Shown: piece by piece, positions 2,847-28,207 of the stretch | Numbering within the stretch: position 1 is the stretch's first letter | Layout: every line of letters begins with the position of its first letter | Virus record (IMG/VR): IMGVR_UViG_3300037502_002467 | Span: 1 to 28,352 of that record | Direction: 5' to 3' (one strand) | Length of the DNA: 28,352 nucleotides | Source: a virus | Translations under genes and position numbers: made by a program | Notes under the pieces: generated by a model | The model's database searches: none | Told to the model about the DNA's origin: nothing | Seen by the model: only the letters and a program-made list of their open reading frames with translations

Positions 2847-3632
2847 TTAATTTTCTACATAATTTATATCTCGCTTATTTTTGAAAAAGAATTCACGTTT
2901 TGCTGCATCAATCCAAAATGATGCCTCATTCTCACTTAATAAAAATTCGGGTTGATTTTTGTAGTTCCAAAACAAAGAGTCTTCTCTAAAATTTACATGT
3001 TGATATCCCACTCTTGGTACTGTCATAATTTTAACATCATTATATGTGAGTCGTAAAAATAATTCATACCCAAAAGTTAGTTTTATGTTGTCTTTTAATA
3101 AACCATTGTCAATAATCACTTTAGTTTTATATAACCCACCACTTATTTGGTAATTTTGATATTCTAACAAAACTTCGTTTTCTAAAAATCCTTGTTTTTC
3201 ACTAAAACCATATGCCCAAACAGATTCGTTGGTGAAACTGATGAATTCGCCTTCGCTATTGATATCTTTTACTATAGGTAAAAATACAGATACTTCAGGA
3301 TATGCTTGAATGTATTCATTCATGGATGTCAACCAAATTTGTTTGTATTCATCATCAACTTCTAATATTGAAAACCATTCAGTATCACAATTAGTAATTC
3401 CTAAATTTACTAAACTACAAAAATCTGTCATTTTATTAGATGTGATAATTTTTGTTTCAATATTAGCACTTGTTGCTTGTTTTGAAATTTCTTTTTCAAT
3501 TTCATTAGGACAAACAATTAATAGTTTTACATCATTATGAAAAGTAGAAATAGATGATATAGCATTTTCCATCATTTTTGAATAATCTTCATCAAATTTG
3601 TGTATAGGTAAAATAATACTTATATTTTTCAT
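2847..3632 (-). CDS. Family 2-like (GT-A) glycosyltransferase
   Basis: The 261-residue protein begins with the classic GT2 strand and loop (ISIILPIHKFDEDYSKM). It then has a nucleotide-sugar-binding region with an NxG-like turn (SLVNLGITNCDTEW, residues 73-86) and an acidic metal-site motif in FSILEVDDEY (D93, D94, the DXD position). Aromatic residues in the C-terminal half (ENEASFWIDAAKREFFF) may contact the acceptor. The start overlaps the stop of the next upstream gene by four bases (ATGA). Unusually for this window, an AGGAGG run sits 7 bases before the ATG, within the last codons of the upstream gene. The acceptor could be modified phage DNA, a virion protein or a host polysaccharide; the sequence does not decide. 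Confidence 0.85.
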   Translation of the reverse strand: MKNISIILPIHKFDEDYSKMMENAISSISTFHNDVKLLIVCPNEIEKEISKQATSANIETKIITSNKMTDFCSLVNLGITNCDTEWFSILEVDDEYKQIWLTSMNEYIQAYPEVSVFLPIVKDINSEGEFISFTNESVWAYGFSEKQGFLENEVLLEYQNYQISGGLYKTKVIIDNGLLKDNIKLTFGYELFLRLTYNDVKIMTVPRVGYQHVNFREDSLFWNYKNQPEFLLSENEASFWIDAAKREFFFKNKRDINYVEN

Positions 3633-9270: not shown

Positions 9271-9993
9271 TTAAGAAAACATTAAAGATTTCATTCTTAT
9301 TAATCTTTCTTGTAAATTATTATCGATTTTATTTTTTGGTTTTTCGTCTTTTTTTGGTTGTGGTAATTCTTGTTGATTATTTTGTTCGGGTTCTTTTTGT
9401 TCAGGTTCAGTAGGCGTGTTAGTTGGTTTTTCTTTTTGTTTGGGTTGTGGTAGTTCTTTTTTAGGTAATACTTGTGGTTCTTCCTTTTGTTTAGGTTGTG
9501 GTAATTCTTTTTTTACTGGTTTTTGTTGTGCTTGTAATTTTGGTTCTATTTTTTTTATTGGTTGCTTTGGTTTTATCTCCTTTGGTTGTGTTGACATATC
9601 TAAACTAACGTAAGTCACCGACATGGATTTATCGTCACCTTGTTTATATCCTGGTCTATTTCCTGGATATGTTTCATCGGTAATCGTTATGTTTCTCATT
9701 CGAGAAATCATAAACGTTCTCCACTTTGTTTTGTCAAAGCCTTTTTTTGAGACTGAAGGTGGTTCAATCCACGCTCTTAAAATTAAGTTACCCTTTTTGC
9801 TCAAACCTATCGCATATGGTTCAACTTTAATTCTTCTACCAGGTCTTACACTATCCTTTTTGGGTTTTTGTGGACCATAGTAATCAAATGTTATTTTCCT
9901 TTTGTTTTTTATTGCATCAACAATAGGTTTTGTTTGTGTTGTTTTAAGAACATTTTGTTCAACCAATATTTGAAAAAGAATACTATCAATCAT
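9271..9993 (-). CDS. WYL-like domain protein with Pro/Gln/Lys-rich tail
   Basis: Residues 20-117 have the order of a WYL domain: IVDAIKNKRKITFDYYG, a basic RPGRRIKVEPYAIGLSKKG, the strand NLILRAWIEPP, and WRTFMISRMRNITITDE. In bacterial regulators the WYL domain binds ligands or nucleic acid and is normally fused to an HTH; none is present here. Residues 150-225 are a low-complexity linker with three copies of an 'ELPQPKxKEEP' unit. The last residues (LQERLIRMKSLMFS) resemble the end of the 165-residue protein two genes upstream. Total length is 240 residues. The neighbours look virion-related, so it may be packaged. The WYL assignment is by pattern and moderately sure. Confidence 0.65.
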   Translation of the reverse strand: MIDSILFQILVEQNVLKTTQTKPIVDAIKNKRKITFDYYGPQKPKKDSVRPGRRIKVEPYAIGLSKKGNLILRAWIEPPSVSKKGFDKTKWRTFMISRMRNITITDETYPGNRPGYKQGDDKSMSVTYVSLDMSTQPKEIKPKQPIKKIEPKLQAQQKPVKKELPQPKQKEEPQVLPKKELPQPKQKEKPTNTPTEPEQKEPEQNNQQELPQPKKDEKPKNKIDNNLQERLIRMKSLMFS

Positions 9994-10372: not shown

Positions 10373-10870
10373 TTAATAATTTATTAGTTTTTTTATTTTA
10401 TTTATTTCTTCAAACAACCCCAAAGATGTTAATGGTGTTATTGAGGATTTTTGAGATGAATTTTTAACAAAATTTGGTTTGGTTATAAAACTAAACCTTT
10501 TTTTATGTTTTGTTAAATGTGTGTTTTTTCTTTCTCCATTTATGGAGGTAATTTCATCTGCTCTTTTTTTAGAATCTTTTTTATTGCTAATCAAATCTCT
10601 TTCGCCTGTTAAAAATTTTGTCCCCCAATTTAACATGGTATCGCCCCCAGCTAAATTGTATTTAACAACATCTTTTGTTTTATCCATATTTTGTAAATCA
10701 TGAATAATTCTTTTCAATTGCCCATAATTAACCTTCTTATCTTGTAATAGTTTTTCCGCTCTCTGTATTCCAGATACCCTACTACCACCTAATCCTGAGA
10801 TAGTATGATTAATCAAATCCAAAACATTTTGCGGTATATTAAAAACTCTACCTTTTAACTCTTTATTCAT
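10373..10870 (-). CDS. Hypothetical protein with LAGGD motif
   Basis: The 165-residue protein has an N-terminal helical half (KGRVFNIPQNVLDLINHTIS; RVSGIQRAEKLLQDKKVNYG), then QLKRIIHDLQNM, then a conserved-looking YNLAGGDTMLNWGTKFLTGERD segment split around residues 72-93. A basic, probably disordered region follows (residues 96-150). It ends in LFEEINKIKKLINY, similar to the end of the WYL-like protein downstream. It overlaps the upstream gene by eight bases. No catalytic function is recognised. The gene group and disordered basic C-terminus suggest a DNA-contacting or capsid-core protein, but this is only an inference. Confidence 0.7.
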   Translation of the reverse strand: MNKELKGRVFNIPQNVLDLINHTISGLGGSRVSGIQRAEKLLQDKKVNYGQLKRIIHDLQNMDKTKDVVKYNLAGGDTMLNWGTKFLTGERDLISNKKDSKKRADEITSINGERKNTHLTKHKKRFSFITKPNFVKNSSQKSSITPLTSLGLFEEINKIKKLINY

Positions 10871-11645
10871 TATTTTTTAAATATTCTAAAACATCATCTA
10901 TTGTTAAATTATTACTTTCTAACGTATCTTTAAAAGATTTTATTTGTCTTTTAATTATTGGATTAACTTCTTTTATTTCTTTGTTTGGTGAATTTACTAA
11001 TTCATAGTCAGAGTTTCTTTTTGATAATATATTTTCAATAAATTCCTCAATAAATTTTTTAGGATTTTCGATTAGTCTAATTTTGTCACCTTTTAATTTT
11101 TTATCATATCCCAAATTTTTTAATCTTTCAATTGTTTCTTCATCAGACAATTTCAAGTTTTTTCTAAAATATCGATACGCTTCTTCATATGAAGCATCTT
11201 TTCCTAATGTTTCGTCATAACCAAGAGCATCACCCATTTCTATTTCATCAATAGTATTTTCTATAAGTTTTTTTAGTTCAGATTTATTCTCAGCCCAATA
11301 CCTTAAAGATGTGTGTGTACCATGAACACCATGCGTACCCATTGATGCTGCACCAGTTTTAACTACTCTATCCGTAATTTCTTTCTGTGTTATACCATTT
11401 TTTTTAGATGCTAAAGGTGTTTTTTTTCTCATAATATTACCTTTTTTATCTACGATTTCTTCTAAATCTTCTTCATCAACCTTTTCAGGTATTTTTTCAA
11501 AATCAGTATCATCAGAAAATTCTTTTGCCCATTTCGCCCATTTTTTTCCTTTTTTACCGCCCTTTCCAGCTTGAGCATAAAAATATCTTTGTTGAGCTTT
11601 GGATGCGAATTTTTCTTCAATAACTTGTTTTATAAAATTATTCAT
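10863..11645 (-). CDS. Hypothetical virion-type protein with AQQRYFYA motif
   Basis: The first gene of the long minus-strand operon encodes 260 residues. The N-terminus (MNNFIKQVIEEKFASKAQQR, then YFYAQA) has an amphipathic helix and a motif resembling the 'SKAQQRFM' segment (DUF3008-like) of other phage proteins. A basic Gly/Lys/Trp patch (GKGGKKGKKWAKWAKEF) follows. A Gly/His segment lies at about 106-120 (ASMGTHGVHGTHTSLRYWAE). The C-terminal half is acidic and helical. This resembles an internal head protein with a short targeting N-terminus, but no function is proven. Candidate late promoter AATAAATA is about 40 bases upstream. Confidence 0.7.
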   Translation of the reverse strand: MNNFIKQVIEEKFASKAQQRYFYAQAGKGGKKGKKWAKWAKEFSDDTDFEKIPEKVDEEDLEEIVDKKGNIMRKKTPLASKKNGITQKEITDRVVKTGAASMGTHGVHGTHTSLRYWAENKSELKKLIENTIDEIEMGDALGYDETLGKDASYEEAYRYFRKNLKLSDEETIERLKNLGYDKKLKGDKIRLIENPKKFIEEFIENILSKRNSDYELVNSPNKEIKEVNPIIKRQIKSFKDTLESNNLTIDDVLEYLKNNE

Positions 11646-14965: not shown

Positions 14966-17869
14966 ATGAAAGAAGTTATTCCACAACATATTATTGAAAA
15001 GTTCTTGGATGGTGAAGATGATGAAAAATATATTGTCGGTGTTGAATATGATTACAAAACTGATTTAATCCATAAAATTATACAAGACCCTGAATTAGGT
15101 AAAATAACAAAACCAGACACATTCACACCATTTATGTGGTGTGGAGACTTATCACAATTAAATTTTTATAAAGGTAGTAAGTCTCAGTTAAAAAAAATGA
15201 TGGGTCATTATGGTATTCTAATCGAAAAGTTAGATACGCATGGTGATAGTAGATTAGAGAATGGACATAAGTTTTTAATCAAATGTATTAAAACTTATTC
15301 TGATATGATTAACTTCTTCAAAAATGGTGGTATTGATCCGTGGAGTGACAAGTATAAAAAACATTTTACAATATTATCTGCTGTCGAACAATATCTGATA
15401 CAAAAGAAAAAAAGATTATTCAAAGGTATTGAAGATTATTCAGATGTCCACCGATTTGTATATGACATTGAAACCACTGGTTTAGACCCTAACACCAATA
15501 AAATCATATTAATTGGTGTTAAAGATAATAGAGGTTATAAAAAAACAATATCAGCATTTGGTGATAATGGTGAGGCGTTGTGTATAATTGAATTTTTTGA
15601 AACAATAAAACTTCTGAAACCAACAATTATTGGTGGATATAACTCAGCAGCGTTCGACTTACCATTTATATTGAGAAGAGCGGAAATATTAGGCTTGGAC
15701 ATAAAAAAATTGACAAGCATTATTGCGAGCAAACCTATAAAAGAAAAAGAGGGTGTTTTGAAATTAGGCAATGAAGTTGAGAAATATACTCAACATGTGT
15801 TGTTTGGTTTTAATATTATTGATATTGCACATTCAGTTAGGAGGGCACAAGCAATAAACTCGGAGATTAAATCTTGGGGACTGAAATATGTTACAAAGTT
15901 TCTTGAAAAAGAAAAACCAAATCGTGTCTACGTTGATGGTGATAAAATTAGCAACATTTATTTAGAAAATGAGAGTTATTATGTAAATCCTAAATCTGGC
16001 AAATATAAAAAGATTGGTACACCAGGTACCGAGAATTTATTACAAAAATATCCTAAGTCATATGAAATATGGTCAGGTCAAAGAATTGTAGAACAATATC
16101 TTGATGATGACTTGTACGAAACCATGATTGTTGATGATTCTTTTAGCCAATCAACATTCTTACTTTCAAAACTTGTACCAACAACATATGAAAAAGTTGC
16201 CACGATGGGTACCGCATCATTGTGGAGATTAATTATGGTTGCTTGGTCTTATGAGAATAATCTACCGATTCCACAAAAAGATGAAAAAAGAAAGATTACA
16301 GGTGGATTATCAAGATTATTAAATGTTGGATATTCTAAAAATATTGTAAAGTTTGACTTTGCTTCACTATACCCTTCTATCGAATTGTACTATGACATAT
16401 TCCCAGATTGTGACATATTGGGTGCGTTAAAAACAATGTTGGGTTATTTTAGAAACATTCGTATCAAGTATAAGAGATTAACAAGTGAACTTAAAGACTC
16501 TGACCCCGTAATGTCAGAAATGTATGATAGAAAGCAATTACCTATTAAAATATTCATCAACGCATTTTTCGGTTCGTTGTCTGCTCCTCATGTATTTCCA
16601 TGGGGTGATATGAATCTTGGAGAAATGACAACTTGTATTGGTAGACAATGCTTGAGGATGATGATTATGTTCTTCATGAAAAAAGGTTACAAAGCATTGG
16701 TTATGGATACTGATGGTGTAAACTTTGAAACACCACCCGATGTAGAAACGCATACATATATTGGTAAGGGTTTAAATGAATTGGTTGAAGTTGGTAAGGT
16801 ATATGAAGGAATTGCTGCGGATGTTGCTCAATTCAATGATATCTTTATGAGAAATGAAATGGGTTTAGATATCGATTATATTGCTCCAGCAACTATCAAC
16901 GTATCAAAGAAGAATTATATCATTAAGATTATCAAAAAAGGTAAAGAGAAAATAAAACTTACAGGAAATACAATTAAATCAAAAAAACTCCAACAATATG
17001 TTGCAGATTTCTTGGATGAAGGTTTAAAACATTTATTGAATGGTGATGGACTATCATTTATTGAATCATACTACGCACATATAGAAAAGATACATAATAA
17101 GGAAATACCATTGGCTAAAATTGCAAATAAGTCTCGTGTAAAACAATCTGTTGAGGATTATGGTAAACATATTAAGAAAGTAACCAAAGCGGGTACACCA
17201 ATGTCCAGACAAGCACATATGGAGTTAGTTATTCAGAATAATTACCCCGCGAATTTAGGTGAAACTATTTATTATGTAAACAATGGCCCCAAAAAGGGTT
17301 CGGGTGATGTTTGCATGAAAAACAAATGGACAAAAAAAGAAAAAAGAGAATACGAATCTACTCATGGTCATCCCATGCCTGATGATTACAAATTATTGGA
17401 AATTAATTCTTATATGATTCCTGAAAAGGAAATCATGGAAAATCCCGATATGAAGGGAGATTATAATGTTGCAAGATATATTGCTATTTTTAATAAAAGA
17501 ATTGAACCATTGCTTGTAGTATTCAAACCTGAAATAAGAGATGATATACTTGTTGAAAATCCAAAAGACAGACAATATTTTACAAAACAACAATGTGAAT
17601 TGGTGAATGGTCATCCTTTAAAACCTGAGAATCAAGATAATTTAGATGAGGTTTTAACATTATCAGATAGTGAAGTTGCATTTTGGAACAAAATGGGTGT
17701 TGACCCATATTTTATGTATGTAGAAGATAGTCTGACTGAAATAGACTATTCATGGGTAGAATTTAATCGAAGTTTATTAGATAGCAATCAAAGCCATGTT
17801 AAAAACAATGAAGATGAAATTTTTGATGAAAAAAATAGCGATAATATTGAACACGCTGTTTTCGTTTAA
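14966..17869 (+). CDS. 43: Family B DNA polymerase (T4 gp43-like)
   Basis: The replicative polymerase, with 3'-5' proofreading. Exo I is YDIETTG (acids near 167 and 169), Exo II is GGYNSAAFDLPF, and Exo III may be QYLDDDLYE. Polymerase motif A is DFASLYPSI (about residue 463), motif B is KIFINAFFGSL (about 528) and motif C is MDTDGV (about 580), where a Gly replaces the Ser of canonical DTDS. KNYIIK and KLTGNTIKSKKLQQ mark the palm/thumb region. At 967 residues it exceeds T4 gp43 (898), partly through a segment between Exo II and Exo III. It is convergent with the neck gene, and the stops overlap. Confidence 0.96.
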   Translation: MKEVIPQHIIEKFLDGEDDEKYIVGVEYDYKTDLIHKIIQDPELGKITKPDTFTPFMWCGDLSQLNFYKGSKSQLKKMMGHYGILIEKLDTHGDSRLENGHKFLIKCIKTYSDMINFFKNGGIDPWSDKYKKHFTILSAVEQYLIQKKKRLFKGIEDYSDVHRFVYDIETTGLDPNTNKIILIGVKDNRGYKKTISAFGDNGEALCIIEFFETIKLLKPTIIGGYNSAAFDLPFILRRAEILGLDIKKLTSIIASKPIKEKEGVLKLGNEVEKYTQHVLFGFNIIDIAHSVRRAQAINSEIKSWGLKYVTKFLEKEKPNRVYVDGDKISNIYLENESYYVNPKSGKYKKIGTPGTENLLQKYPKSYEIWSGQRIVEQYLDDDLYETMIVDDSFSQSTFLLSKLVPTTYEKVATMGTASLWRLIMVAWSYENNLPIPQKDEKRKITGGLSRLLNVGYSKNIVKFDFASLYPSIELYYDIFPDCDILGALKTMLGYFRNIRIKYKRLTSELKDSDPVMSEMYDRKQLPIKIFINAFFGSLSAPHVFPWGDMNLGEMTTCIGRQCLRMMIMFFMKKGYKALVMDTDGVNFETPPDVETHTYIGKGLNELVEVGKVYEGIAADVAQFNDIFMRNEMGLDIDYIAPATINVSKKNYIIKIIKKGKEKIKLTGNTIKSKKLQQYVADFLDEGLKHLLNGDGLSFIESYYAHIEKIHNKEIPLAKIANKSRVKQSVEDYGKHIKKVTKAGTPMSRQAHMELVIQNNYPANLGETIYYVNNGPKKGSGDVCMKNKWTKKEKREYESTHGHPMPDDYKLLEINSYMIPEKEIMENPDMKGDYNVARYIAIFNKRIEPLLVVFKPEIRDDILVENPKDRQYFTKQQCELVNGHPLKPENQDNLDEVLTLSDSEVAFWNKMGVDPYFMYVEDSLTEIDYSWVEFNRSLLDSNQSHVKNNEDEIFDEKNSDNIEHAVFV

Positions 17870-18993
17870 ATAGGAATGATAGGTGCTGGCATTGCTCTGA
17901 ATTTCATAGCACCATTTAAGTACTCAGCCTCTAACTTTCTTCTTTCCATGAGTTTTTCAGGTCTGAGCCTTGTCAATATACCTTCAGCACCTATAAGTTC
18001 TTCAATCAATTTCATTCTGTCGTCCTTGGCCTCAGTCAATAAAGTATTATAATCTAATTTAATAGTACTATCAGGCACTTGCAAGTCACCAGAGAATTTG
18101 CCCCAAATTCTTGCTAAACCTTCTTTTGCATAAGTCATCAAATATCTTCTAACCCAATTTTGTGCTGGTCTATTTAAATCAGACCACATCAAACCTTCAG
18201 TTTGGACATCTGATGGTAATTTTACAATATCTTTATTTGCAGCCAAGCATTCATCTCTATTATCGGTGGTTTCATAATACCAATACCATACTTTGTAGTT
18301 GTGTTGTTGTATTGATCCGAAATCGAATCTACCACCAGGAGTATTATACAAATGAACCATTTTTGTACCATTTGGACCCGCAGTGATTCTATATGTCAGT
18401 TCTCCACCAATCAACTTGTTTTTCATGCTTCTATCTTGCATCCTCAATAGTAAGTCAAATGCGGGTAGCATGAAATAGGAGCCCGATGTGCCCATTTGAG
18501 CGAATCCACCAACACCACCAAAGCCAACACCACCAAGACCGCCAAAACCACCTAAAAATGGGTCTACGATACTATCTGTTAACTCGGCTCTGGTAAACCA
18601 TAAGAGTTCGTTTATTTCTCTTCCAGCGGGTATAATATATGTTTGTGTATTTGCACTTAATTCAATATAATCCTTTTTTAATTCCCATGGACCACCAGCT
18701 TGTAAGCCAACGATTTTAGAATATGCATAGGAGTATTGTGTTTCATAATCAAGGCTTCTTGTGGTGAACGCTCTTGTTAAAGATATGGTATCAACATCAA
18801 CATTCACCAAAGAAGACCACTGAGATTCAATAAGCCAATTATGAACGTATTGTTCATAGTCATTCATTGATAACTCTAAAAATGAATCCATTTGTTCTTC
18901 TGTCAATTCAACCCCACGAACTGGCATCCCCAACAAATGGAAAATTTGTGTATATAATTTCTCTTTTTCTGTCTGCGTGATTACTGTACTCAT
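17866..18993 (-). CDS. 13: Neck protein, T4 gp13-like
   Basis: This 375-residue protein resembles the T4 neck family that closes the filled head and joins it to the tail. The N-terminus has the typical helices LYTQIFHLLGMPV, LTEEQMDSFLELSMNDYEQY and VHNWLIESQW. The C-terminal half holds WVRRYLMTYAKEGLARIWG. A Gly-rich loop (residues 147-165, many GG and FGG) lies in the middle and is an unusual insert. The length is above T4 gp13 (309). It is the only gene of its unit, reading left from the divergent region at 18994, and its stop overlaps that of DNA polymerase. Confidence for a neck/connector role is good; exact orthology less so. Confidence 0.8.
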   Translation of the reverse strand: MSTVITQTEKEKLYTQIFHLLGMPVRGVELTEEQMDSFLELSMNDYEQYVHNWLIESQWSSLVNVDVDTISLTRAFTTRSLDYETQYSYAYSKIVGLQAGGPWELKKDYIELSANTQTYIIPAGREINELLWFTRAELTDSIVDPFLGGFGGLGGVGFGGVGGFAQMGTSGSYFMLPAFDLLLRMQDRSMKNKLIGGELTYRITAGPNGTKMVHLYNTPGGRFDFGSIQQHNYKVWYWYYETTDNRDECLAANKDIVKLPSDVQTEGLMWSDLNRPAQNWVRRYLMTYAKEGLARIWGKFSGDLQVPDSTIKLDYNTLLTEAKDDRMKLIEELIGAEGILTRLRPEKLMERRKLEAEYLNGAMKFRAMPAPIIPI

Positions 18994-21028: not shown

Positions 21029-21541
21029 ATGAATAATAAAGCACCAATCACGAGATTAAACAAATTTTTTTCTCAAGATGATTTTGACTTACAGATACAA
21101 TTGGGTATGGAATATCTACATGGTGATATTAATATGCGACTTGTGTTATATCGTGTAGATAGAGAAAAAACAGATATTGATAATGTATATGGTGAAGTTG
21201 GAAAAGATGAAATCAAGTTCTTACCTCCAGTTGAGATTAATGGATTAGTCAAAATTGATGAACCTAAAAATGCATCATACAAAAATGGATTATTACGTTA
21301 TAACGAACCTGGAAATCTAACTGTTACTATTTATTTGAGTCATTTGGAAGATTTAGGTGTTGATATTAGATATGGTGATTATATAGGTTATCCAGAATCT
21401 GATGAAAGATTAAGGTTTTATAGTGTAACAAATGATGGTAGAGTTATTGCGGATAATAAACACAAAATGTTTGGTTACAAACCGCATTACACAACAATAA
21501 CTTGTGCATATGTACAAGATACAGAATTCAGAGGTTTATGA
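21029..21541 (+). CDS. Neck/head-completion protein, gp14-like
   Basis: The 170-residue beta-rich protein ends with a signature that I associate with T4-like neck or head-closure proteins: VDIRYGDYIGYPES, then a strand pair (RLRFYSVTNDGRV), an aromatic turn (MFGYKPHYTTITCAYV) and EFRGL. This resembles the C-terminal half of gp14 family proteins, but the match is by pattern. It starts the plus-strand operon that continues with the metallopeptidase and the gp15-like protein; its stop overlaps the next start by four bases (ATGA). The context of connector and tail genes supports the assignment. A head-completion or tail-terminator role is the alternative. Confidence 0.6.
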   Translation: MNNKAPITRLNKFFSQDDFDLQIQLGMEYLHGDINMRLVLYRVDREKTDIDNVYGEVGKDEIKFLPPVEINGLVKIDEPKNASYKNGLLRYNEPGNLTVTIYLSHLEDLGVDIRYGDYIGYPESDERLRFYSVTNDGRVIADNKHKMFGYKPHYTTITCAYVQDTEFRGL

Positions 21542-22191
21542 AAATTATTGTCAATTCAACACAATTAAGATTATTATTAGAAACAAATGGTATTGACGAC
21601 TTTATGGATATATTCGTTAATTCATATCCCAAATTTGAAATAATAGCAGATGATGTTAGAGAATTTATTATTAAGTCTAAATGTCAAAATATTGAAATTT
21701 CTAATATAGCATTTTCAGGTGCCGCTGGTTTTGCTCTTTATGATAGAGTTGTTTTGAATAAGAACTTATTTAATGATATTAATAATGAATATAAATTAAG
21801 TTATTTGTTATATGCGATTTTTCATGAATTATCACATTCATATCAATATAAAAAATATGGTTTTGATAAAATGGCTAGTTTCTATACAAATGAAATTTCT
21901 GTTACAGAAGCTGCTGAATTTATGCAATATATTGAAAATGTTGCAGATGAATTTGCAATAAGAAAATTGAGACAAATAGCTTTAAAATATAAAGGTAAAA
22001 TAGATATTAATTATAATATTATTAAAAAAGCATATAAAGATGTTCCAATCGTTCATTTTATACAATTTATTAAGCAAATTAAAAAAATTATAGAAAAATC
22101 GGGTGTAAAAGATAAAAGACAAATACCACAATTAATGTATAATTATTTTAAATATATGATAATCGATGTCAATTCCCAAGAGAAAAAATAA
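21538..22191 (+). CDS. HExxH zinc metallopeptidase-like protein in the neck/tail operon
   Basis: I start it at ATG 21538, which overlaps the previous stop (ATGA), rather than at the earlier in-frame ATG at 21502 that would overlap by 40 bases. The 217-residue protein has HELSH (96-100), the zinc-binding and catalytic HExxH motif, and ENVADEFA (133-140), where E133 fits the third ligand in the 'ExxAD' pattern of gluzincins. Helices surround these sites. The C-terminal 65 residues are Lys/Ile/Tyr-rich. It is unlike the serine-type prohead protease of T4. It could process virion proteins, be packaged, or act during infection. The fold family is not decided. Confidence 0.78.
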   Translation: MKIIVNSTQLRLLLETNGIDDFMDIFVNSYPKFEIIADDVREFIIKSKCQNIEISNIAFSGAAGFALYDRVVLNKNLFNDINNEYKLSYLLYAIFHELSHSYQYKKYGFDKMASFYTNEISVTEAAEFMQYIENVADEFAIRKLRQIALKYKGKIDINYNIIKKAYKDVPIVHFIQFIKQIKKIIEKSGVKDKRQIPQLMYNYFKYMIIDVNSQEKK

Positions 22192-23419
22192 TATTGATGT
22201 ATATGGTAACAAACCATATTATATAGGTCAAGATATACAAAATAGAAGACAAGAATTATTGGACAGAATTACTAAGTCTGATAGTTACTTACCTGATTCT
22301 ATTTTACATGATGATTTGGATTTGGGTATGTTAGATTTTATAAAAAATTATTTTGTTGTTGTTTCAGATGGTCAAAAAATCCCCGTTATCAATAAAATAC
22401 TCACAATACAAAGATGGGCTGAATTTTCTAATAATTGGGAATTTGCTGATGAAGATGGAAACATGCAATTACCATTTATAGCAGTTATAAGAAAACCTGA
22501 TGTACAACCAGGTACAAATCCCATAACACAAAGAACGATTCCCGATAGAAAAACATTTTATTATGCTTCTGTTCCAACATGGAATGGAACACAAATGGGG
22601 GCTGATATATATAGAATACCACAACCCGTTGCCGTTGATATTACATATGAGGTAACAATCGTTTGTAATAAATTCAGAGATTTGAATAGATTCAATAAAA
22701 TTGTTTTACAAAAGTTTTCATCAAGACAAGCATATACAACAGTTAAAGGACACTATATTCCAATCATATTGGAAACAATAGATGATAGTACACCAATGGA
22801 TACCATTGATGGTAGAAGATTTTATATTCAAAATTATAAATTTGTTATGCTTGGTTTTTTGATTGATAAAGAAGAATTTGAAGTTAAACCAGCAATTAGT
22901 AGATTTTTTCTGATGAATGAATTTATTGATTCAAAATCATTAGAAAGACGAGTTATCAATAAGATAATAGACATAAGAGTTGTCAATTTCATTGCTGATG
23001 GTATGCAAACCCAATTTAGTGTTGGTGAAACAATATCTGTATTGTTTAATGTTGGAATTAATGGTTTGGTTCAAGAATTAGGTACAAACTATTATCACAT
23101 TGCGGGTACATCTAAAGTGACATTTGAAGAACCACCAATAGAAGGTAGTGTTGTTACTATAACATATTATAAAAATAAGAGTGCTAATTTTATAGACAAT
23201 TATGGTAAACCATTATTTTTAGGAAATGAATATTTTGTTTATGATGGTACAAACAATATTTATAATACCACCAATGCAATTAAAGATATTGTTTCTTTAG
23301 ATATTAATGGTCTTATTGAAGAAGAAGGTATTGGTTTTGATATTACAAGTGATTATACTATAACAATCAACTATAACCCTGTTATTGGTTCAAAGATTGG
23401 TGTTACGTATTTATATTAA
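22166..23419 (+). CDS. gp15-like tail completion protein with fibre-like C-terminal extension
   Basis: Residues 1-250 follow the pattern of T4 gp15-type proteins: GQKIPVINKILTIQRWAEFS (69-88), LPFIAVIRKPD, then PVAVDITYEVTIVCNKFRDL (154-173), LQKFSSRQAY and HYIPIILETIDD. T4 gp15 stabilises the end of the sheath and tail tube. From about 270 to 336, and again from about 373 to the end, the sequence matches phage fibre-type modules (VNFIADGMQTQFSV; VGINGLVQELGTNYY; EEPPIEGSVVTITYYK; LDINGLIEEEG). Total length is 417, far above T4 gp15 (272). It overlaps the metallopeptidase gene by 26 bases. The gp15-like core is likely; the extension's role is inferred. Confidence 0.7.
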   Translation: MSIPKRKNNIDVYGNKPYYIGQDIQNRRQELLDRITKSDSYLPDSILHDDLDLGMLDFIKNYFVVVSDGQKIPVINKILTIQRWAEFSNNWEFADEDGNMQLPFIAVIRKPDVQPGTNPITQRTIPDRKTFYYASVPTWNGTQMGADIYRIPQPVAVDITYEVTIVCNKFRDLNRFNKIVLQKFSSRQAYTTVKGHYIPIILETIDDSTPMDTIDGRRFYIQNYKFVMLGFLIDKEEFEVKPAISRFFLMNEFIDSKSLERRVINKIIDIRVVNFIADGMQTQFSVGETISVLFNVGINGLVQELGTNYYHIAGTSKVTFEEPPIEGSVVTITYYKNKSANFIDNYGKPLFLGNEYFVYDGTNNIYNTTNAIKDIVSLDINGLIEEEGIGFDITSDYTITINYNPVIGSKIGVTYLY

Positions 23420-26683: not shown

Positions 26684-28207
26684 ATGGACATTACATTAAA
26701 ATGTGAAAACTGCAATAATGAGTTTATCGCTAAGTTTAAACACCGAGATAAGAAGTTTTGTAACAGAAATTGTTATTTCGAATATGCTAATAAACACAAA
26801 ACATTGGGAAGACCAATAGATAATGATGTTAGAGAAATTAGAAAATGTCTACAATGTGGTAGTGAATTCACAGAAAGAAAAAAATACGATAGGAAAATAT
26901 GTTCTGATGAGTGTAGAACAATTTGGAATAACAATCCAATTAATATTGAAAATAGAATTATTAAAAGTAAGGAATCATTAAAAGAAAAGTATGGTATTGA
27001 TACTTTATTTAAAAGTATTGAGTTTCAAAAAAATTTGAAAAAATCATTTTTAGAAAAGTATGGTGTAAAACATCCAATGGCTAAACAAGAATTTGTTGAA
27101 AAACTAAAAAATACAATAAAACGTAATCATTTACCAAAATTAATTGAATCATTAAAAACACATAATATTCAACTATTGGATGAATACATTAATAACAAAG
27201 ATGGTAATACTTCAAGACCATATAATTTTAAATGTAATAGATGTGATTACGTTTTTACCAGTACTTTATTGGGTTCTGGTAAAATTCCAATATGTAGAAA
27301 ATGTTTTCCAATTACAAAAAATTCAAATTTAGAAACATTCGTTAAAGATTTTTTGAATGAAAATGGTATATATCATATCAATGGTGATAGAAAAATATTA
27401 AATGGAAAAGAACTTGATATACTAATACCAAATAACAATATTGCAATTGAAATAAATGGACATTATTACCATTCAGAAATACATGGTTCAAAAGATAAAA
27501 AATATCATATTGGTAAAACTATATGTGCAAATGAAAAAGAAATTAAACTTATTCATATAATGGAGGATGAAATAATTTTAAAAGAAGAGATTGTAAAATC
27601 TAGATTAAGAAATATTCTTGGGTTAATTAATAATAAAATATATGCCAGAAAGTGCGATATAAGAATAGTAGGAAAAAAAGAATCTGAAAACTTTCTTAAT
27701 AAGAATCATATTCAAGGTAATTCGATAGATAAAATAAGGATTGGGTTATATCATAATGAAGAATTGGTATCATTAATGACTTTTGGACATAAAAGAAAAG
27801 TGTTAGGAAATAAAAAAACAAATAGTTTAGAGTTTGAACTAATAAGGTTTTGTAATAAAATAAACACCAATGTTATTGGTTCATTTTCAAAATTATTAAA
27901 ATATTTTATAAAAACACACAACCCAAAATCAATAATTACATATGCAGATATAAGATGGTCTGGGATAAATCCAAAAGAAACTGTTTATAATAAAAATGGT
28001 TTTAAATATTTGGGATTAACAACACCAAATTATTGGTATGTTAATATTGGTAAATTTATTGATAGACATCATAGATTTACTTTTAGAAAAGATATATTAG
28101 TTAAAGAAGGTTTTGATAAAAATAAAACTGAATGGGAAATAATGAAAGAAAAATCATTTGATAGAATTTGGGATTGTGGTTCTATGAAGTTTGAAATGTT
28201 ATTTTAG
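26684..28207 (+). CDS. Free-standing Vsr-like homing endonuclease with zinc fingers
   Basis: The 507-residue protein has two N-terminal Cys4 zinc sites (C7/C10/C26/C30 and C55/C58/C73/C77), then two helical 'EKYGxxxxxKSxEFQ' repeats (about 98-147), a third zinc site (C184/C187/C204/C207), and a Vsr-type PD-(D/E)xK-like core (KELDILIPNNNIAIEINGHY, 242-261, with D245 and E256). The C-terminal part (about 315-500) includes ARKCDIRIVGKKESENFLNK and a GF/TTPNYWYVN segment resembling GNAT-like domains. This architecture matches phage homing endonucleases of the Vsr-related family. Terminators sit on both sides, so it looks like an inserted, self-contained unit. No intron or intein was detected around it. 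Confidence 0.85.
   Translation: MDITLKCENCNNEFIAKFKHRDKKFCNRNCYFEYANKHKTLGRPIDNDVREIRKCLQCGSEFTERKKYDRKICSDECRTIWNNNPINIENRIIKSKESLKEKYGIDTLFKSIEFQKNLKKSFLEKYGVKHPMAKQEFVEKLKNTIKRNHLPKLIESLKTHNIQLLDEYINNKDGNTSRPYNFKCNRCDYVFTSTLLGSGKIPICRKCFPITKNSNLETFVKDFLNENGIYHINGDRKILNGKELDILIPNNNIAIEINGHYYHSEIHGSKDKKYHIGKTICANEKEIKLIHIMEDEIILKEEIVKSRLRNILGLINNKIYARKCDIRIVGKKESENFLNKNHIQGNSIDKIRIGLYHNEELVSLMTFGHKRKVLGNKKTNSLEFELIRFCNKINTNVIGSFSKLLKYFIKTHNPKSIITYADIRWSGINPKETVYNKNGFKYLGLTTPNYWYVNIGKFIDRHHRFTFRKDILVKEGFDKNKTEWEIMKEKSFDRIWDCGSMKFEMLF

Follow-up and report, generated by a model that had tools for sequence, protein, structure and literature searches.

The locus and its genes

The window, by which is meant the whole 28,352-nucleotide stretch of DNA analysed here, which comes from an uncultured T4-like phage, carries on its plus strand a gene (21538..22191) for a predicted accessory zinc metallopeptidase of 217 residues. 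The reading frame is open from ATG to TAA, as the earlier note had it, and its product is described here by a homologue alignment and an AlphaFold model. The gene is inserted between two neck genes. The left border is formed by a gp14-like gene (21029..21541, plus strand), whose stop overlaps the peptidase start in an ATGA at 21538-21541, and the right border by a gp15-like gene (22166..23419, plus strand), whose ATG at 22166 leaves 26 bases common to both genes; the coupling and the overlap had both been pointed out before and are borne out. The two neck genes are named from gene order alone, following T4 and Microcystis phage Mel-JY01, in which nothing lies between the corresponding two genes, and neither protein matches a PHROG or Pfam family at E 0.1. 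The surroundings also include a helicase gene, a tail sheath gene and, on the minus strand, a head-tail adaptor gene (PHROG 211, 17866-18993). A homing endonuclease gene (PHROG 3339, E 1.1e-109; 26684-28207, plus strand) follows behind the tail sheath gene.

Within the protein, HELSH (residues 96-100; 21823..21837, plus strand) holds the predicted zinc ligands H96 and H100 and the predicted catalytic E97, and ENVADEFA (residues 133-140; 21934..21957, plus strand) holds the proposed third ligand, E133, both motifs lying where they had been reported. Residues 1-15, MKIIVNSTQLRLLLE (21538..21582, plus strand), are proposed to be a capsid-targeting propeptide that would be cut after E15.

Homologues and predicted catalytic class

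Searches with the single window protein returned no relative in IMG/VR, none by tblastn among 50,697 phage records (E up to 10) and nothing among the PHROGs, and two central homologues found none in the same phage records at E up to 1. The sole Pfam match of the window protein, JmjN, was dismissed as chance. With the neck adaptor as the query, IMG/VR yielded 252 relatives, of which 80 were kept, and four of these 80 carry a homologue of the peptidase at 62 to 35% identity. A profile built from five peptidases then gave 88 homologues, 80 of which were kept, and removal of near copies at 90% identity led to a non-redundant alignment of 46, from which L140 and L203 (no usable start) and the long chains L152 and L185 had been omitted beforehand; all but two of the 46 are shorter than 300 residues (44/46). 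One pattern run over bacterial and archaeal contigs matched 150 stretches and confirmed zero relatives. The searches made thus found no cultured-phage relative of this family.

H96, E97, H100, Y102, Q103, K105, K106, Y107, G108, E133, A136, D137, K143 and Y166 are invariant in all 46 non-redundant homologues, and the pattern HExxHxYQxKKYG is unchanged across them. A candidate third ligand conserved in the homologues, the lack of which would have spoken against a peptidase, is therefore present as E133. The AlphaFold2 model forms a single domain (mean pLDDT 91.3, pTM 0.87) with HEXXH in helix 84-107 and E133 in helix 122-150; the N-terminal segment is its least confident part, the first ten residues averaging 60. 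Top rows of the VIA comparison are mainly gluzincin-type peptidases, all weak with Z under 6, such as ERAP1 (Z 5.8, rmsd 3.3, 123 aligned) and PprI (Z 5.7, rmsd 4.2, 96 aligned). Foldseek gave no match at E 0.001 (best E 0.36), a structure library of viral proteins gave weak matches with a best E of 0.046, and a profile search of PDB sequences showed marginal similarity to MJ0392 (E 0.005) and proabylysin (E 0.0075). The SprT-like family PF10263 does not match the window protein at E 1 and matches 27/46 homologues weakly, with E values from 1e-4 up to 1. The fold searches point to no close family and rule none out. The class that had been suggested for the protein, a gluzincin-like zinc metallopeptidase with predicted zinc binding and activity, agrees with the invariant HEXXH and Glu and with the zincin-like model, and as a prediction from sequence and model it is well supported.

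An accessory insertion between neck genes

Among 71 relatives in which both flanking termini of the gp14/gp15-like junction are resolved, 66 lack the peptidase, and only 1 to 7 bases separate their two neck genes. The peptidase occupies the junction in three (L005, L031 and L064), and in L073 and L078 other genes are found there that themselves start with tags of the same kind as the N-terminus described below; L032 carries the peptidase with an unresolved gp15 start. Seen from the peptidase, both neck genes flank it in 22/80 homologue loci, four of which (L160, L162, L163 and L167) have about 415 bases between gp14 and the peptidase; one neck gene flanks it in 2/80 and neither is present within the available flanks in 56/80. 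The peptidase start lies directly behind the adaptor gene in L169, L171 and L208, and in the 251-kb relative G009 the gene, at 9.3 kb, is well away from the neck genes and belongs to a tagged-gene cluster. Rather than a fixed member of the neck set, the peptidase gene is an accessory insertion. The description of the gene as embedded in the neck/tail operon accordingly stands as a statement of position and fails as a hint of its role.

The first of the roles that the earlier note had offered is that of a neck/tail assembly protease maturing virion proteins. Its translationally coupled position between the gp14-like and gp15-like genes, repeated in the 22 loci, would agree with such a role, and a maturation role has been proposed for a zincin of other jumbo phages (PMC7824862). 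It is nevertheless the least probable of the readings considered here and very improbable in itself, since the peptidase is missing from most of the resolved relatives that share these neck genes, and the loci that show neither neck gene argue against it as well.

Interchangeable N-terminal tags

The N-termini of the homologues fall into three main short types, exemplified by MKIIINENQLKLLLE (type A), MNLQENIRRILKE (type B) and MKKIVRLTESDLTRIIKRVISE (type C), that are exchangeable and end just before the conserved core. The window peptidase bears a type A tag, and in the five nearest peptidases M1, K2, Q9, L12 and E15 are invariant. In the manner of a T4-type capsid-targeting sequence, the short N-terminal peptide comes with an L/I-x-E site, which in the window protein is LLE at residues 13-15. 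An [LI]xE triplet stands at the joint between tag and core in 40/46 homologues, compared with 1008/8140 control windows (12.4%) of equal length elsewhere in the same proteins. The joint is missing in the other six: L206 and L209, which have no tag, and L151, L168, L184 (where the triplet is VNE) and L189. At this place L189 reads LISPNVEG, as does its near copy L197 from G009, although that genome has a prohead protease, and L206 is without a tag despite the protease in its record, G038. Untagged homologues that start at the core are L203, L206, L207 and L209.

On a tree of the core the tag types A, B and C require at least five changes (37/46 rows counted); this is a quick tree with 15/43 weak inner branches, and the tag labels were set by hand with 9/46 rows (seven other, two untagged) outside the A/B/C count. 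Of the identical residues in type C tags, a fraction of 0.40 is encoded by different synonymous codons (random pairs, 0.52), so these tags are kept as protein; the partial codon identity fits recent exchange. A purely DNA-level signal such as a recombination site was put low, given this synonymous variation. A search of cultured phages with the tag peptide alone returned nothing.

The same tags on unrelated proteins

HMMs built only from the tags of the peptidases match 23/698 predicted proteins of four relative genomes, two of which are peptidase homologues. Eighteen of the matches are N-terminal, two C-terminal and three internal. Reversed proteins give 4 matches and three shuffles give 3, 1 and 2, and a few of the 23 are therefore expected by chance. 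Across the loci, N-terminally tagged proteins other than the peptidase account for 217/1107 predicted proteins in the 80 peptidase loci as against 8/998 in the 80 neck loci, a comparison that counts near-identical loci more than once, and a tagged neighbour is present in 48/80 peptidase loci.

Tag ends on unrelated proteins were scored over distinct bodies with the last residue left free. They are [LIV]xE in 24/24 type B and 23/24 type C tags, and conservation drops after this triplet, except that type B favours E next (18/24). Type A, the window's own type, is the weakest general case because [LIV]xE stands at the anchor in only 16/50; an [LI]xE nevertheless falls within twelve residues in 31/50, later windows giving 4 to 11 of 50. 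The same peptide is thus found on non-homologous proteins, with the least force for type A.

These tagged proteins bear on the idea that the N-terminus keeps this particular peptidase inactive as a zymogen propeptide, or helps it to fold, and has nothing to do with the capsid. Its being the least confident part of the model would suit such a role, and abylysin and jannalysin, two weak structural relatives, are called zymogens in the titles of the papers concerned. The idea is nonetheless highly doubtful, as the same tags stand on proteins that have no peptidase motif, are exchanged among the homologues and, judging from type C codons, are kept as protein.

A fourth N-terminal type, NLQENIQRIKEMMG, occurs in L172, L174, L182, L204 and other homologue loci and is similar to the C-termini (QFKRMKELM) of scaffold-like proteins in G001, G009 and G012, a resemblance hinting that the tags may mimic a docking peptide of the scaffold. 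In the window, a WYL-domain protein (PF13280, E 1.6e-7; 9271-9993, minus strand) has an N-terminus, MIDSILFQILVEQ, with an LxE site and a C-terminus, RLIRMKSLMFS, like those of the relatives' scaffold-like proteins. Also on the minus strand, the products of 10373-10870 and 10863-11645 each bear a tag-like terminus, LFEEINKIKKLINY at the C-terminal end of one and MNNFIKQVIEEK at the N-terminal end of the other. Different proteins (L073:4120-5625, L145:6611-7069 and G009 2971-3387) carry a zinc-ribbon module (CxxCGW...CHKCGHDN) behind the tag. The Peptidase_C39-like gene L097:9877-10854, from G009, encodes a tag-like N-terminus, and its start coincides with the final base of the peptidase gene. 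L152:4069-7134 encodes a chain of 1021 residues that, judged by eye, opens with a nucleotidyltransferase-like region and also contains a zinc ribbon and a pair of zincin motifs; it is possibly a cargo polyprotein.

Chains of this kind raise another function for the peptidase, which might be carried into the head by its tag and cut other cargo there or on delivery, with no host protein involved. Zincin domains have been proposed to process polyvalent proteins (PMC5512222), and in L152 and the 531-residue L185 the peptidase is joined to further domains, L185 carrying a type B tag inside its chain; the Peptidase_C39-like gene that comes after the peptidase in G009 points the same way. This packaged processing enzyme is unlikely, if less so than a zymogen propeptide or a neck/tail maturase, since nearly all aligned homologues are under 300 residues, the gene is also found in neck operons without tagged neighbours and the phages already have a prohead protease.

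Proposed capsid targeting and the prohead protease

T4 directs a few proteins to its capsid that inhibit restriction enzymes and redirect host transcription. The prohead protease gp21 is said to cut after L/I-X-E, ten N-terminal residues of IPIII to be enough for targeting and Alt to be cut at both ends, and an E-to-D change in IPIII is reported to block cleavage while leaving targeting intact (PMC9026906). gp21 is also said to take 65 residues off gp23 and 10 off gp24, with IPI and Alt acting inside the host (PMC9958956). T4-type internal proteins are likewise described as having a characteristic N-terminal signal and being injected, and type IV restriction enzymes as being blocked by Ip1, Ip2 and Ip3 (PMC12373910). 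The T4 record gives the cut ends as FLTE65 in gp23, LLRE10 in gp24 and MKTYQEFIAE, with FIAE at 10, in IPII and IPIII.

A gp21-type protease, Peptidase_S77, is present in 11/18 relative records, many of which are fragments, and in 12/28 records that bear the peptidase, the other 16 of which give no match and may be fragments; in G009 the protease gene lies at C1:77576-78265. The relatives also have a Gp23-type capsid protein, that of G001 matching at E 5.5e-75. In all three genomes counted (G001, G009 and G012) LINE stands at residue 60 of this protein, a site that was set beside that of T4 gp23 by eye; the Gp23-type protein of G005 has the LINE motif in the same context. Within the 28-kb window, itself a fragment, Peptidase_S77 and Gp23 find no match at E 1. 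Two small genes with type C tags are found in G012 between its protease gene and its scaffold-like gene.

Proposed function

Taken together, the zinc peptidase is probably carried into the prohead by a removable capsid-targeting sequence of the T4 type, injected with the DNA and used to cut a host protein, although packaging, cleavage, injection, zinc binding, proteolysis and the host target are all inferred. The last step by itself, which is drawn from analogy, is close to an even call. It is proposed that the small gluzincin-like metallopeptidase is an optional cargo enzyme expressed alongside the late neck genes, and that residues 1-15 would serve to dock it in the prohead's scaffold core. 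Cleavage after E15 by a gp21-type prohead protease would then yield a mature, 202-residue peptidase that stays beside the DNA inside the head. At the next infection the mature enzyme may be injected and cleave a host protein, by analogy with the injected IPI and Alt of T4. Of the roles that had been listed for the protein, carriage in the virion followed by cutting of a host substrate is accordingly favoured by the N-terminus that resembles a capsid-targeting sequence, and maturation of neck or tail proteins is disfavoured.

A wider reading, for and against which the balance is about equal, is that a group of uncultured T4-like phages uses interchangeable, protease-removable tags to load dozens of effectors into the head, the zinc peptidase being one cargo whose gene is able to enter late operons including that of the neck genes. 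The tags would be N-terminal and sometimes C-terminal, or would form joints inside polyproteins. This signature, read from sequence alone, points to a much larger load of injected cargo in uncultured phages than in T4, a family of zinc peptidases included. If true, this would allow the proteins that an uncultured phage injects to be recognised directly in its sequence by their tags, would make the question of which proteins such a phage injects testable by a tag search and would supply new tags for loading proteins into phage heads.

Comparison with known systems

The delivery principle is that of T4 and is already known. What is new is a zincin family as probable capsid-targeted cargo, together with further tag types and tagged clusters that are larger than the internal-protein loci of T4. 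No description of a capsid-targeted metallopeptidase or of these tags was found in the open-access literature searched, and a brief literature search found no virion mass-spectrometry paper for Flavobacterium phage immuto or Microcystis phage Mel-JY01.

As predicted enzymes, the peptidases are reminiscent of the minigluzincins (proabylysin and projannalysin), PprI/IrrE and the M1 aminopeptidases, with which they share HEXXH, a downstream Glu and weak profile or fold similarity. The sequence similarity is marginal, however, and the window protein differs from these gluzincins in its N-terminus and its phage context. A further comparison is with the metallopeptidase domains of polyvalent proteins and the SprT-like zincins of jumbo phages, which are likewise phage zincins proposed to be delivered or to cut host proteins (PMC5512222, PMC7824862), the latter being proposed for the SprT-like zincins (PMC7824862). 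Unlike these, members of the family described here usually have a single domain and a putatively detachable tag, the exceptions in length being the chains L152 and L185, and the window protein of 217 residues and one domain lacks the two or more effector domains that mark a polyvalent protein.

A close parallel is with the T4 proteins IPI, IPII, IPIII and Alt, whose capsid-targeting sequence is also a short N-terminal peptide ending in L/I-x-E, a gp21-type site (PMC9026906, PMC12373910). In both systems the tag is common to otherwise unrelated proteins and the cargo, putative in the present phages, is accessory and variable. The phages described here differ from T4 in having several other tag sequences, a predicted enzyme of zincin type among the proteins that bear them and many more tagged proteins clustered together.
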